The notes under the pieces are model-generated. The model did not search any database. It was not told the DNA's origin and was given only the letters and a program-made list of their open reading frames with translations. DNA of 41,159 nucleotides from NCBI GenBank assembly GCA_025449775.1, contig JANWIS010000040.1, forward strand, positions 1-41,159, in the 5' to 3' direction. Positions within the stretch are counted from its first letter, which is position 1; each line of letters starts with the position of its first letter. This document shows positions 1-4,819 of this stretch, piece after piece. The DNA comes from Ignavibacteriaceae bacterium (lineage in GTDB: Bacteria; Bacteroidota; Ignavibacteria; Ignavibacteriales; Ignavibacteriaceae). A program made the position numbers and the translations under genes.

Positions 1-713
1 GCTTCTCTCTGTGCAACAACCTGAAATGTAAAAGCAATCCCAACTGAAAATATTCCTGCATAAAGTACAGGCAAAGCAGTTGCGATAATGTTTTGGAAAA
101 TAATTGTTTCTGTAATCAATGCAGCCACTAAACTTAAACCAGCACTTACCACAAATTGTGAAAATGCAAGTTGAAGAGGATCAACCCTTGTTGAATAAAA
201 GCCGATAACAAGAATTTGTATTGCCCAGAAAAATGCACCTATCAAAACCAGAATATCACCGATATTTATTTCAAATTTTTCATTCACACTTAGAAAATAC
301 AAACCTATGATTGCAACAACTGCTCCGAGCCAGGTATAAAAATAAGTTTTCTGATTAATGAACAGACCAAGTATTGGAACAAGAATTATATAAAATCCTG
401 TTATGAAACCTGCTTTGCCTGCATCGGTGTAAACCAATCCGGTTTGCTGGAATGTAGATCCTAAAAAGAGTACTATACCCGAAGCTAATCCACCATATAA
501 AAGCTTTTTATCTTTTAATGAAACAAGAAGGATTTCTTTCCCTGATTTTTTTTTTTGGTTGATGAATAAAATAGGAAGTAGAGACAAACTGCCAAGTACG
601 AATCTTGCAGTATTAAAAGTGAATGGTCCGATGTATTCCATGCCAGCACGTTGAGCTACGAATGCGAAACCCCAAATAACAGCGGTAATCAGTAAAAGTA
701 TATTAGATTTCAT
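1..713 (-). CDS. EamA/DMT-family transporter, 3' end off window
   Basis: This reading frame is absent from the ORF track because its stop lies beyond the left edge. Read on the minus strand from ATG at 713 it gives about 237 residues starting MKSNILLLLITAVIWGFAFV. It is almost entirely hydrophobic, with about eight membrane segments and short polar turns. The N-terminal Trp-Gly-x-x-Phe followed by a 'QRAGMEYIGPFTFNTARF' stretch is typical of the drug/metabolite transporter superfamily (EamA domain), usually 280-300 aa, so 40-60 residues are missing. Members export or import amino acids and other metabolites at the inner membrane, and the substrate cannot be read from sequence. The start lies only 8 bp after the stop of the aldolase gene, so it is probably the third gene of a proline dehydrogenase-aldolase-transporter operon. 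Confidence 0.85.
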   Translation of the reverse strand, partial: MKSNILLLITAVIWGFAFVAQRAGMEYIGPFTFNTARFVLGSLSLLPILFINQKKKSGKEILLVSLKDKKLLYGGLASGIVLFLGSTFQQTGLVYTDAGKAGFITGFYIILVPILGLFINQKTYFYTWLGAVVAIIGLYFLSVNEKFEINIGDILVLIGAFFWAIQILVIGFYSTRVDPLQLAFSQFVVSAGLSLVAALITETIIFQNIIATALPVLYAGIFSVGIAFTFQVVAQRE

Positions 714-721
714 TAAAAATT

Positions 722-1606
722 TTATTCAATCAGTTGAGCTTTTTTCAAAATCATTTTTAGCTCTATCAATTGCGATTCGTTTAGTGGCTCGAGTGGTAAT
801 CTAGGCGGACCACCAAAATATCCCAGCATATCCATTGCTGCTTTTAAGCCAGCAACACCAAATTTTGATGTTACAGCTTTGTTAACGGGAATCATCCTGT
901 TTTGAAGCTCCAATGCTTTTCCAAAATTCTGTTCTCTGAAAAAATTATAAATTTGAACACATTGATCTGGTGCAATATTAGCCAGAGCCAGAATTCCTGC
1001 AACTGCACCACCGGAGAGGGCAGAATACAGAACAGATGCAGTTCCAATAATTAGTTTAAATCCAGTATGAACATTTGCAGCAATCTCGGAAATCCTTGAT
1101 GGATTTTCTGTACTGTCTTTCAATGCAACAATGTTTGGGTGAGAGGCTAGTTCAATAATAGTTTCAGTTTCAATATTGACATTAGTAAATTTTGGAACAT
1201 TGTAGATGATTACCGGAATCATCACACTTTCTGCTACCTTGAGATAGTAATTCAAAAATGTACGATGTTTCATTTCAGATTTAAAAAATGAAGGTGAAAT
1301 TATTAAGGCATAGTTAGCTCCAAATTCAGCCGCTTCATTCGTAAGTGAAATGGTTTCTTTTATTGAATCCAGACCCGTACCGGCTATGATCGTTCGATTA
1401 GTTTGCTCCCTGGTCGTACGTATAATTTTTAATTTTTCTTCCTTTGTAAGAAATGCACTTTCCCCATTCGAACCAAAAAGTACATAACCACTTAGAATTT
1501 TTGTTTCGTACCTCAGAACGTTTTTAATCAATTGGTCGGTTGCAACTTCATCATCAACAAATGGAGTTGTTAAAGGCGGATAAATTCCTTTTAGTATGTC
1601 TGTCAT
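722..1606 (-). CDS. DapA-superfamily aldolase, 4-hydroxy-2-oxoglutarate aldolase-like
   Basis: A 294-aa class I (Schiff-base) aldolase of the DHDPS/N-acetylneuraminate lyase superfamily. Lys163 in 'ALKDS' is the Schiff-base lysine and Tyr135 in 'YNVP' the catalytic tyrosine. It differs from true DHDPS. The substrate loop reads GSNGE (45-49) instead of GTTGE, the 'PYYN' motif is 'PSFF' (no Tyr107 equivalent), and the position of the carboxylate-binding Arg138 is Phe140. Several blocks resemble vertebrate HOGA1 as I remember it: 'GIYPPLTTPF', 'GSNGE..FLT', 'HPNIVALKDS' and a C-terminal 'KFGVAGLKAAMDMLGYFGGPPR'. HOGA1 cleaves 4-hydroxy-2-oxoglutarate to pyruvate and glyoxylate, the last step of hydroxyproline degradation. 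The proline dehydrogenase gene lies 26 bp upstream and fits that role. Annotation as dapA would probably be wrong; another 2-oxo-acid aldolase specificity is possible. The start is ATG without a clear Shine-Dalgarno. Confidence 0.8.
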   Translation of the reverse strand: MTDILKGIYPPLTTPFVDDEVATDQLIKNVLRYETKILSGYVLFGSNGESAFLTKEEKLKIIRTTREQTNRTIIAGTGLDSIKETISLTNEAAEFGANYALIISPSFFKSEMKHRTFLNYYLKVAESVMIPVIIYNVPKFTNVNIETETIIELASHPNIVALKDSTENPSRISEIAANVHTGFKLIIGTASVLYSALSGGAVAGILALANIAPDQCVQIYNFFREQNFGKALELQNRMIPVNKAVTSKFGVAGLKAAMDMLGYFGGPPRLPLEPLNESQLIELKMILKKAQLIE

Positions 1607-1632
1607 AATATATTATATTTTAGTAGTTAGCT

Positions 1633-2562
1633 TTATTTACTAAATAGATTTTTTAATACAAATCCGATATTTGCAGGTCGTTCAGCGAGACGCCGTACGT
1701 ACCACGGATACCATTGCTTACCATAACTTATTAGTGTTCTGATTTTAAAACCATTATCCGTAAGCTGCTTTTGTTCTGCAGATTTAATTCCATACAGCAT
1801 CTGGAACTCAAGTTGTTTCTTATCAAGTCCGGTTCTTTCAGCCTCTATTTTAATTTGCTCCTGTATGTTAAGATCGTGCGTTGCAAAAGCCACACGAATG
1901 TTTTTATCCTTAATTAGTTGAAGAAGGTATTGGGAAATTTTCATGTAATTTGAATTGACATCTGACAACCTTTTAAACGCTATTGATGGTAGTTCTTTAT
2001 AAGCACCTTTAACTAAACGGATTGATGGATTTATTCTCTCCATGCTTTTTATATCTTCCATAGTCCTGTAAAGATAAGCTTGCAAACACAACCCAATGTT
2101 ATCAAAATTTTCTTTTATCCTTTTATAAAGTGAGATTGTTCTGTTTACATATGAGCTGTCTTCAATATCAATAAACACGTAGTTGTGCAGAAGTTTTGCT
2201 TTTTCTGCAATAGTTGAAAGGTTTTCCAATGTCTTTTCGAATGAGAGGTCAAAACCGACTTGAGTTAATTTCAGAGATATTTCAATATCCAGATTTTCAG
2301 CTTTTATTTTATCAAGCAGAACAAGATAGTGATGTGTGTTATCTTCAGCTTCACCAATCGTGGTAATGTTTTCACCCAGGTGAGTGAGTGTTGTTGGTAT
2401 GTTACGTGATAAAAGTTGTTTTGATGCAAGAAGCACATCTTCTACTTTTTCACCGGGCATAAATCTCTTAACTGCCCGTTGAACAAACTTCATTTTCGGA
2501 ACATGATTTTTCAGCCATTCATTTCTGGATGCCCATAACAAAGTATTTCTGCCTAAACTCAT
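1633..2562 (-). CDS. proline dehydrogenase family protein (possible hydroxyproline oxidase)
   Basis: A 309-aa monofunctional FAD-dependent proline dehydrogenase (PRODH, beta-alpha barrel). Family motifs in order are 'THLGENITT' (~60), 'FIDIEDSSY' (~130), 'LCLQAYLYRT' (~158), 'RLVKGAYKE' (~182), 'VAFATHD' (~224), 'FQMLYGIKS' (~254) and the C-terminal 'YVRRLAERPAN' with Arg290/Arg291 to bind the substrate carboxylate. It oxidises proline to pyrroline-5-carboxylate and passes electrons from FAD to the quinone pool. Aligning 'IRTLISYG' with the usual 'VRVYVPYG' puts Leu277 where E. coli PutA has Tyr540, the residue thought to disfavour hydroxyproline. This may be a subfamily trait rather than unique. 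It is the first gene of a minus-strand operon with the HOGA-like aldolase. No P5C dehydrogenase is visible in the window. The start is ATG at 2562. Confidence 0.88.
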   Translation of the reverse strand: MSLGRNTLLWASRNEWLKNHVPKMKFVQRAVKRFMPGEKVEDVLLASKQLLSRNIPTTLTHLGENITTIGEAEDNTHHYLVLLDKIKAENLDIEISLKLTQVGFDLSFEKTLENLSTIAEKAKLLHNYVFIDIEDSSYVNRTISLYKRIKENFDNIGLCLQAYLYRTMEDIKSMERINPSIRLVKGAYKELPSIAFKRLSDVNSNYMKISQYLLQLIKDKNIRVAFATHDLNIQEQIKIEAERTGLDKKQLEFQMLYGIKSAEQKQLTDNGFKIRTLISYGKQWYPWYVRRLAERPANIGFVLKNLFSK

Positions 2563-2749: not shown

Positions 2750-3313
2750 TTACATAACCGGCCACAGCCAGCCGAAAATTCCTCCGGTTAATAATCCGTA
2801 AATTAATCCATCAAACATTGATTTGGAAGTTGCAGCCCAGCTTCGTTTATACCAGATACTATTTTGCATCAATGCAAGACTGTATCCAACGAATGCAGTT
2901 GTACCCGCAAATCTGAAAACGGAAAGATATTCAGCACCAGCCGGAAGTGCTTCACTTGCGATATAAGCAGCGAAAATACCAACGATAATTGAATTGATAA
3001 ACCATAATGTGAGTTCCTTACCCATACCTGGTGTTTTGTTTTCCATTAGAGTTATAAATCCTACTGGACCTTGTTTATATTTTTCTAAAAATTCCGGTGA
3101 CTTCATGTCTTTCATATCTTTTGGACGAGGAAAGTGATAATTGCCGGGTGGAATATTATGTTTTCGTAAATCATCCATCACCTGTTTTTCTGATGAAAGT
3201 CCGGAAAAATCATTTTTATGGTAACCAAGTACCATATGAATAATTGCACTCACAATAAACGTAGCACTGGCTGAAAGCAAAATTGGTAGCCAGAGTGAAG
3301 CTAATGTAACCAT
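2750..3313 (-). CDS. conserved membrane protein of unknown function
   Basis: A 187-aa protein that I do not recognise. It has an N-terminal membrane segment (~7-30), a hydrophilic stretch (~31-100) rich in Lys/Pro with 'DDLRKHNIPPGNYHFPRPKDMKDM', then three closely spaced hydrophobic helices (~103-123, 131-152, 168-186). The polar part would form a soluble loop between helices 1 and 2. There are no cysteine clusters or catalytic motifs. The start is well supported: GGAG sits 7 nt upstream of the ATG. It lies 58 bp downstream of tRNA-Arg on the same strand and ends 74 bp before a strong terminator, so it may be transcribed from the tRNA promoter or its own. Function cannot be assigned from context. 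Confidence 0.75.
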   Translation of the reverse strand: MVTLASLWLPILLSASATFIVSAIIHMVLGYHKNDFSGLSSEKQVMDDLRKHNIPPGNYHFPRPKDMKDMKSPEFLEKYKQGPVGFITLMENKTPGMGKELTLWFINSIIVGIFAAYIASEALPAGAEYLSVFRFAGTTAFVGYSLALMQNSIWYKRSWAATSKSMFDGLIYGLLTGGIFGWLWPVM

Positions 3314-3949: not shown

Positions 3950-4819
3950 ATGTTCAAAGGCGTTGGTACAGCTTTAATAACACCATTCAAACAGGATCAA
4001 TCGATTGACCTCGACTCACTCAAAAAAATTGTTCAGAAACAGATTGAAAGTGGTATTGATGCATTAATAGTTATGGGTACAACAGGTGAATCCCCCGTAA
4101 TTGAATATGATGAAAGAAGAAAAATAATTTCGCTCGTAGTAGAAGAGGCAACGGGTAAAATTCCTGTTATAGTGGGAACGGGAACAAATAATACAAAGAA
4201 GGTAATCGAGAACAACCACCAGGCAGAAGATCTTAAAGCAGATGCGTTGTTGATTGTAAATCCTTACTATAATAAGGGCACACAGGAAAGTTTGGTTGAA
4301 CATTATAAAGCAATTTCAGAAAAAACACATCTACCGATTATTTTGTACAATGTTCCTTCAAGAACAAGTATGAACATACTTCCGGAGACAGCTGTAAGAA
4401 TTCACAAAGAGTGCAAAAATGTTGTAGCAATAAAAGAAGCCTGTAATAACATATCACAAATTGCAAAACTTTTTTCTATTAAGCCTTCAACGTTTACGGT
4501 GTTTTCTGGAAATGATGATGAAACAATTCCTACAATGGCTTTGGGCGGTGATGGAGTGATATCTGTTTTCTCAAATCCATATCCTATCGAAATGAAAAAA
4601 ATTACTGACTCTGTTTTTAGCGGTAAGTTGAATATAGCACAGGAATTTAACAACAAATATTTATCAATGATGAATTCATTATTTATAGAAACAAGTCCAG
4701 CACCGGTAAAGTATGTTATGTCAAAACTTGGACTTTGCGAAAATGTTCTTCGTCTCCCTTTGTTAAAAGCATCCGGAAAAACGGAAGAGCTTCTAGAAAA
4801 AGAAATGAAAAAAATTTAA
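3950..4819 (+). CDS. dapA: 4-hydroxy-tetrahydrodipicolinate synthase
   Basis: A 289-aa enzyme that condenses pyruvate with aspartate semialdehyde, the first committed step to diaminopimelate and lysine. All classical DHDPS residues are present at nearly the E. coli numbers: GTTGE with Thr44/Thr45, 'NPYYNK' with Tyr107, 'YNVPSRT' with Tyr133 and carboxylate-binding Arg138, and Schiff-base Lys162 in 'VVAIKEA'. The length is typical. It is the first gene of dapA-dapB-dapH-lysC, and the ribosome-binding site AGAGGA precedes the ATG. This complete active site contrasts with the DapA paralogue at 722-1606 and makes this copy the biosynthetic one. No lysine riboswitch was recognised upstream. Confidence 0.96.
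   Translation: MFKGVGTALITPFKQDQSIDLDSLKKIVQKQIESGIDALIVMGTTGESPVIEYDERRKIISLVVEEATGKIPVIVGTGTNNTKKVIENNHQAEDLKADALLIVNPYYNKGTQESLVEHYKAISEKTHLPIILYNVPSRTSMNILPETAVRIHKECKNVVAIKEACNNISQIAKLFSIKPSTFTVFSGNDDETIPTMALGGDGVISVFSNPYPIEMKKITDSVFSGKLNIAQEFNNKYLSMMNSLFIETSPAPVKYVMSKLGLCENVLRLPLLKASGKTEELLEKEMKKI

Follow-up and report, generated by a model that had tools for sequence, protein, structure and literature searches.

The first genes of this contig raise the question of which compound is broken down by a bacterial proline dehydrogenase (PRODH) whose gene is followed directly by one for a HOGA1-like aldolase. The window, i.e., the whole stretch of 41,159 nucleotides that was analyzed, is the entire contig C40 of a draft genome of 2.23 Mb that is 82% complete. 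The animal hydroxyproline pathway consists of PRODH2/HYPDH, ALDH4A1, GOT2, HOGA1 and AGXT, and such an oxidative route is not generally credited to bacteria. We propose, with good confidence, that the two genes encode the committed core of an animal-type oxidative pathway for trans-4-hydroxy-L-proline that is organized as a bacterial operon.

Organization and conservation of the gene pair

Three genes are tightly packed on the minus strand, with the gaps that the sequence-only reading had given for them. They encode a PRODH of 309 aa that is the proposed trans-4-hydroxy-L-proline dehydrogenase (1633..2562; Pfam Pro_dh, 97 bits), a putative HOGA1-like 4-hydroxy-2-oxoglutarate aldolase of 294 aa (722..1606; Pfam DHDPS, 170 bits) and an EamA-family transporter that is cut by the contig end (3..713; Pfam EamA, 109 bits). 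The PRODH and aldolase genes are separated by 26 bp (1607-1632), and the aldolase and EamA genes by 8 bp (714-721). A contig chimera was considered and is countered by synteny with locus L035 of a single-contig relative. Position 2750-3313 of the minus strand encodes a 187-aa protein that probably spans the membrane and has no Pfam or NCBIfam match; it is kept near the PRODH gene in four loci of the same genus at 68-76% identity.

Adjacency confined to this genome, an outcome that had been named as speaking against a hydroxyproline role, was not seen. Among 43 distinct Ignavibacteria-type loci with a PRODH of this subfamily at no less than 49% identity, 41 have the aldolase gene directly downstream on the same strand, with gaps of 2-550 bp, most of which are <100 bp. 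The two exceptions are L052, which lies at a contig end, and L170, which is an early-branching member. No such aldolase gene was found beside the ordinary PRODH genes of relatives at any of 11 loci where flanks of ~1.5 kb were inspected. In a scan of named genomes, the best 15 of the 80 listed aldolase matches (49-60% identity) all adjoin this PRODH, and none of the remaining 65 (37-49% identity) does. The PRODH subfamily is found in 31 of the 197 genomes of the class, where the pair is kept across several families, and the 13 carriers in a sample of 248 genomes of the phylum all belong to that same class. The pairing of PRODH and aldolase is far beyond chance. At L037:7298-8229 of a draft relative, both the aldolase gene and the HypD gene upstream of it are broken frames, which are probably draft-assembly errors.

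The aldolase and human HOGA1

Human HOGA1 is the best solved relative of the window aldolase, scoring 200 bits where the next structure scores 135 bits, and a profile of 17 family members raises these values to 295 and 200 bits, respectively, so that the lead of HOGA1 is 65-95 bits (single sequence and profile). The key residues of HOGA1 are Ser77, Asn78, Tyr168, Lys196 and Ser198, the last of which has been termed unique (PMC3188589). Their counterparts in the window aldolase are S46, N47, Y135, K163 and S165, and all five are invariant in the 32 aldolases that adjoin this PRODH subfamily and that form one clade with a support of 0.998. The codons of Ser46 and Asn47, two residues of a GSNGE motif, lie at 1466..1471, that of the Schiff-base lysine Lys163 at 1118..1120 and that of Ser165 at 1112..1114, all on the minus strand. 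Tyr140 of HOGA1, which is dispensable (PMC3188589), is replaced by Phe in the window aldolase and in most paired aldolases. The best match and the complete set of key active-site residues thus both agree with the earlier description of this protein as HOGA1-like.

As the aldolase shares its Pfam family with dihydrodipicolinate synthase (DHDPS) and has TIGR00674 as its best NCBIfam match, it might instead be a second DHDPS for lysine synthesis that lies beside the PRODH gene by chance, which we regard as highly improbable. It scores 183 bits against the TIGR00674 cut-off of 206 bits, and Ser-Asn replaces Thr44/Thr45 of DapA; at HOGA1 positions 77, 78 and 198, the window aldolase has the HOGA1 residues, whereas Thr, Thr and Ala are found in eight of eight DapA proteins. 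A complete DapA is encoded nearby on the plus strand (3950-4819; TIGR00674, 313 bits, cut-off 206) by a gene that heads a divergent lysine-type cluster. By score, residues and this separate dapA cluster, a role of the aldolase in lysine synthesis was rejected, as the sequence-only reading had argued from the nearby dapA.

Linked genes and the substrate pocket of the PRODH

Genes linked to the pair in relatives point to the same pathway. An AGXT-type class V aminotransferase gene is linked in 27 of the 43 loci, and the best solved relatives of its product are alanine-glyoxylate aminotransferases (1vjo, 391 bits; mouse-type 3kgw, 301 bits; human-type, ~285 bits). Genes for a Xaa-Pro peptidase of family M24 are found in 18 loci, three of them weak matches, for a P5C dehydrogenase in 17, for the trans-4-hydroxyproline dehydratase HypD in 10 (1332 bits in L047, against a cut-off of 1100) with its activase in nine, for an S37/S28-type peptidase in eight and for a Cys-Thr trans-3-hydroxyproline dehydratase of the proline-racemase family in six. 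Several genomes of genus g55 carry the genes for PRODH, aldolase, AGXT-type aminotransferase and P5C dehydrogenase in a row (L158, L159, L163, L164 and L166-L168), and no linked GOT-type gene was found at the loci.

The P5C dehydrogenase gene of the window's own genome is on contig C72 (TIGR01236, 808 bits, cut-off 614), and its product is closest to 4idm (622 bits) and to mitochondrial enzymes (590-577 bits) among solved relatives, with the Bacillus and Thermus types at 292-264 bits. The AGXT-type gene, HypD and the trans-3-hydroxyproline dehydratase were not found in this 82%-complete assembly, and neither was a Cys-Cys hydroxyproline 2-epimerase. The single-contig relative G002 has the AGXT-type gene (L035:6966-8078) between the aldolase and EamA genes; this gene is missing from the corresponding position in the window (714-721), which suggests a lineage-specific loss or relocation. 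The EamA gene is indeed part of the operon here, as had been noted; its proposed role as the mover of the substrate finds little support, and EamA was rejected as a core part of the cluster, as it is linked in five of the 43 loci.

The DHDPS-family protein could also be read as an LhpC-like deaminase, with the PRODH oxidizing a hydroxyproline stereoisomer to pyrroline-4-hydroxy-2-carboxylate. The established epimerase route does use a deaminase of this family, and genes of the proline-racemase family do occur in six of the 43 loci. However, all the linked racemase-family proteins are of the Cys-Thr, i.e., dehydratase, type, and no Cys-Cys epimerase was found among the 43 loci. The aldolase has Asn78 and Ser198 of HOGA1, which is its best match by a wide margin, and an AGXT-type partner is in keeping with glyoxylate, a compound that is not formed in the deaminase route. 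Consequently, an LhpC-type identity of the aldolase is not favored, and we consider this variant very unlikely.

The Pro_dh gene in the window is the divergent one of two copies; the other, on contig C112, encodes an ordinary PRODH with 33% identity to the window PRODH. Among 59 related genomes, the window's own included, 19 contain the divergent subfamily (52-71% identity to the window PRODH), and nearly all of the 59 also have an ordinary PRODH (31-38% identity). The catalytic residues K329, D370, R431, R555 and R556 (E. coli PutA numbering) are invariant in the subfamily. In the alignment to E. coli PutA, Tyr540 is replaced by Leu and Tyr552 by Trp in all 53 subfamily sequences; the corresponding codons on the minus strand of the window are those of Leu277 (1732..1734) and Trp287 (1702..1704). 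All 12 ordinary PRODHs have Tyr at both positions, and so do the Thermus and Deinococcus enzymes, which are the nearest solved relatives of the window PRODH. Y540 of PutA is described as enforcing proline over hydroxyproline (Ostrander et al., 2009, as cited in PMC10647483). The loss of this tyrosine and the retention of the catalytic residues are consistent with the hydroxyproline dehydrogenase that the sequence-only reading had predicted.

Leu at the Y540 position is also found in seven early-branching PRODHs without a linked aldolase gene (L170, L171, L172, L174, L175, L176 and L177), all with the Leu/Trp pocket, and the idea that it strictly marks pairing with an aldolase was rejected; the pocket change is therefore older than the pairing or independent of it. 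Comparison of the neighbors of these seven genes revealed no common theme. All seven genomes have a second PRODH, three of them contain a HOGA-like gene that is unlinked and belongs to the wider family, and no strong HOGA-like gene was found in the other four.

These observations also bear on whether the locus is a second proline-catabolism operon, in which the PRODH would act on L-proline and the aldolase on some unrelated 2-oxo acid, and the two genes would share a transcript for reasons of regulation. The Pro_dh family is mostly proline-specific, the nearest NCBIfam model of the window PRODH is ProDh_Thermus (219 bits, below the cut-off of 500), the wider aldolase family is also found without PRODH, and in G065, a complete genome that has the pair, no second PRODH was seen, so that there the divergent PRODH may also have to serve proline. 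On the other hand, an ordinary PRODH is already present in nearly all carriers, the tyrosines of the pocket are replaced, and the neighboring HypD and trans-3-hydroxyproline dehydratase act only on hydroxyprolines. Moreover, the breakdown of proline yields no compound that a HOGA1-type lyase could cleave, while oxidation of hydroxyproline gives a 4-hydroxy-2-oxo acid via 4-hydroxyglutamate. A proline operon is thus unlikely. A HOGA1 active site that needs a 4-hydroxy-2-oxo acid, the changed pocket and the hydroxyproline-specific neighbors together point to trans-4-hydroxy-L-proline, which we infer to be by far the best candidate substrate.

The proposed pathway and its comparison with known systems

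In the proposed pathway, the divergent PRODH would oxidize trans-4-hydroxy-L-proline to 3-hydroxy-pyrroline-5-carboxylate, and P5C dehydrogenase, encoded on C72 here and, in many relatives, within the operon or close to it, would convert this product to 4-hydroxyglutamate. A general transaminase would presumably yield 4-hydroxy-2-oxoglutarate, from which the HOGA1-like lyase, via a Schiff base on Lys163, would release pyruvate and glyoxylate, and in most relatives the AGXT-type aminotransferase may then turn glyoxylate into glycine. While the genes, their families, residues and linkage are observed, the substrates and all five reactions are predicted from them. Conservation of the pair, the HOGA1 residues, the PRODH pocket and the linked genes for AGXT-type aminotransferase, P5C dehydrogenase, HypD and trans-3-hydroxyproline dehydratase all argue for the animal-like hydroxyproline route that the sequence-only reading had put forward. 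The observation holds, and the proposed function is very probably correct; known enzyme families are combined here in a bacterial arrangement that is new, without forming a new kind of system. That Ignavibacteria-type bacteria possess a complete, operon-encoded oxidative pathway via 4-hydroxy-2-oxoglutarate and glyoxylate, in which the PRODH owes its specificity to Tyr-to-Leu and Tyr-to-Trp changes of its own and HypD, from the same cluster, provides an anaerobic alternative, seems somewhat likely to us.

No published example of a bacterial HYPDH-HOGA operon was found in the open-access literature, to which the search was confined. PRODH2, HOGA1 and AGXT are among the genes that either underlie primary hyperoxaluria or serve as targets in this disease, and an operon with their counterparts would be a further bacterial hydroxyproline route and would supply bacterial enzymes for work on structure and mechanism. 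Hydroxyproline is an amino acid of collagen, and the operon would also provide a genomic marker for the use of collagen-type amino acids by sediment and subsurface bacteria.

The pathway would work like that of animals: counterparts of four of the five animal enzymes are found among the linked genes of relatives, the HOGA1 key residues are invariant, and the expected intermediates are the same, ending in pyruvate, glyoxylate and glycine. Unlike the animal pathway, it is encoded by a bacterial operon without a linked GOT-type gene, with HypD and prolyl peptidases alongside, and its PRODH is closest to the Thermus type and has Leu/Trp in place of the pocket tyrosines. The likeness of this PRODH to PRODH2 would be functional and does not imply common ancestry. 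The subfamily shares its family and the five catalytic residues with the Thermus and Deinococcus PRODHs and the PRODH domain of PutA, all of which keep Tyr540/Tyr552.

The window aldolase resembles human HOGA1 (3s5o) in fold and in the five key residues and differs from it at Tyr140; among the matches listed, the Chloroflexi protein L098 is closer to human HOGA1 (52%). The bacterial aldolases that, among the matches listed, come closest to human HOGA1 (up to 52% identity) adjoin AGXT-type genes without PRODH, in L098 (4647-6882), L100, L125, L129, L131, L133 and L136, and most tree neighbors of L098 are also beside AGXT-type genes. A FAD-linked oxidase of glycolate-oxidase type adjoins the aldolase in L098, and a D-2-hydroxyacid dehydrogenase does so in L133. 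This linkage suggests a broader glyoxylate-producing module, and as a second, independent association with AGXT-type genes it connects the aldolase superfamily as a whole with glyoxylate.

The described bacterial route for trans-4-hydroxy-L-proline proceeds by epimerase, D-hydroxyproline dehydrogenase and deaminase to 2-oxoglutarate, unlike that of mammals (PMC4364671). The pathway proposed here would share its starting compound and a DHDPS-family enzyme with that route, but it has no linked epimerase, would use a lyase for the deaminase and would end in pyruvate and glyoxylate instead of 2-oxoglutarate. Bacteria also degrade trans-4-hydroxy-L-proline by HypD. This route shares the substrate and, in 10 of the 43 loci, the cluster with the pathway proposed here, and it has a separate chemistry that gives P5C, by which it would serve as an anaerobic alternative.
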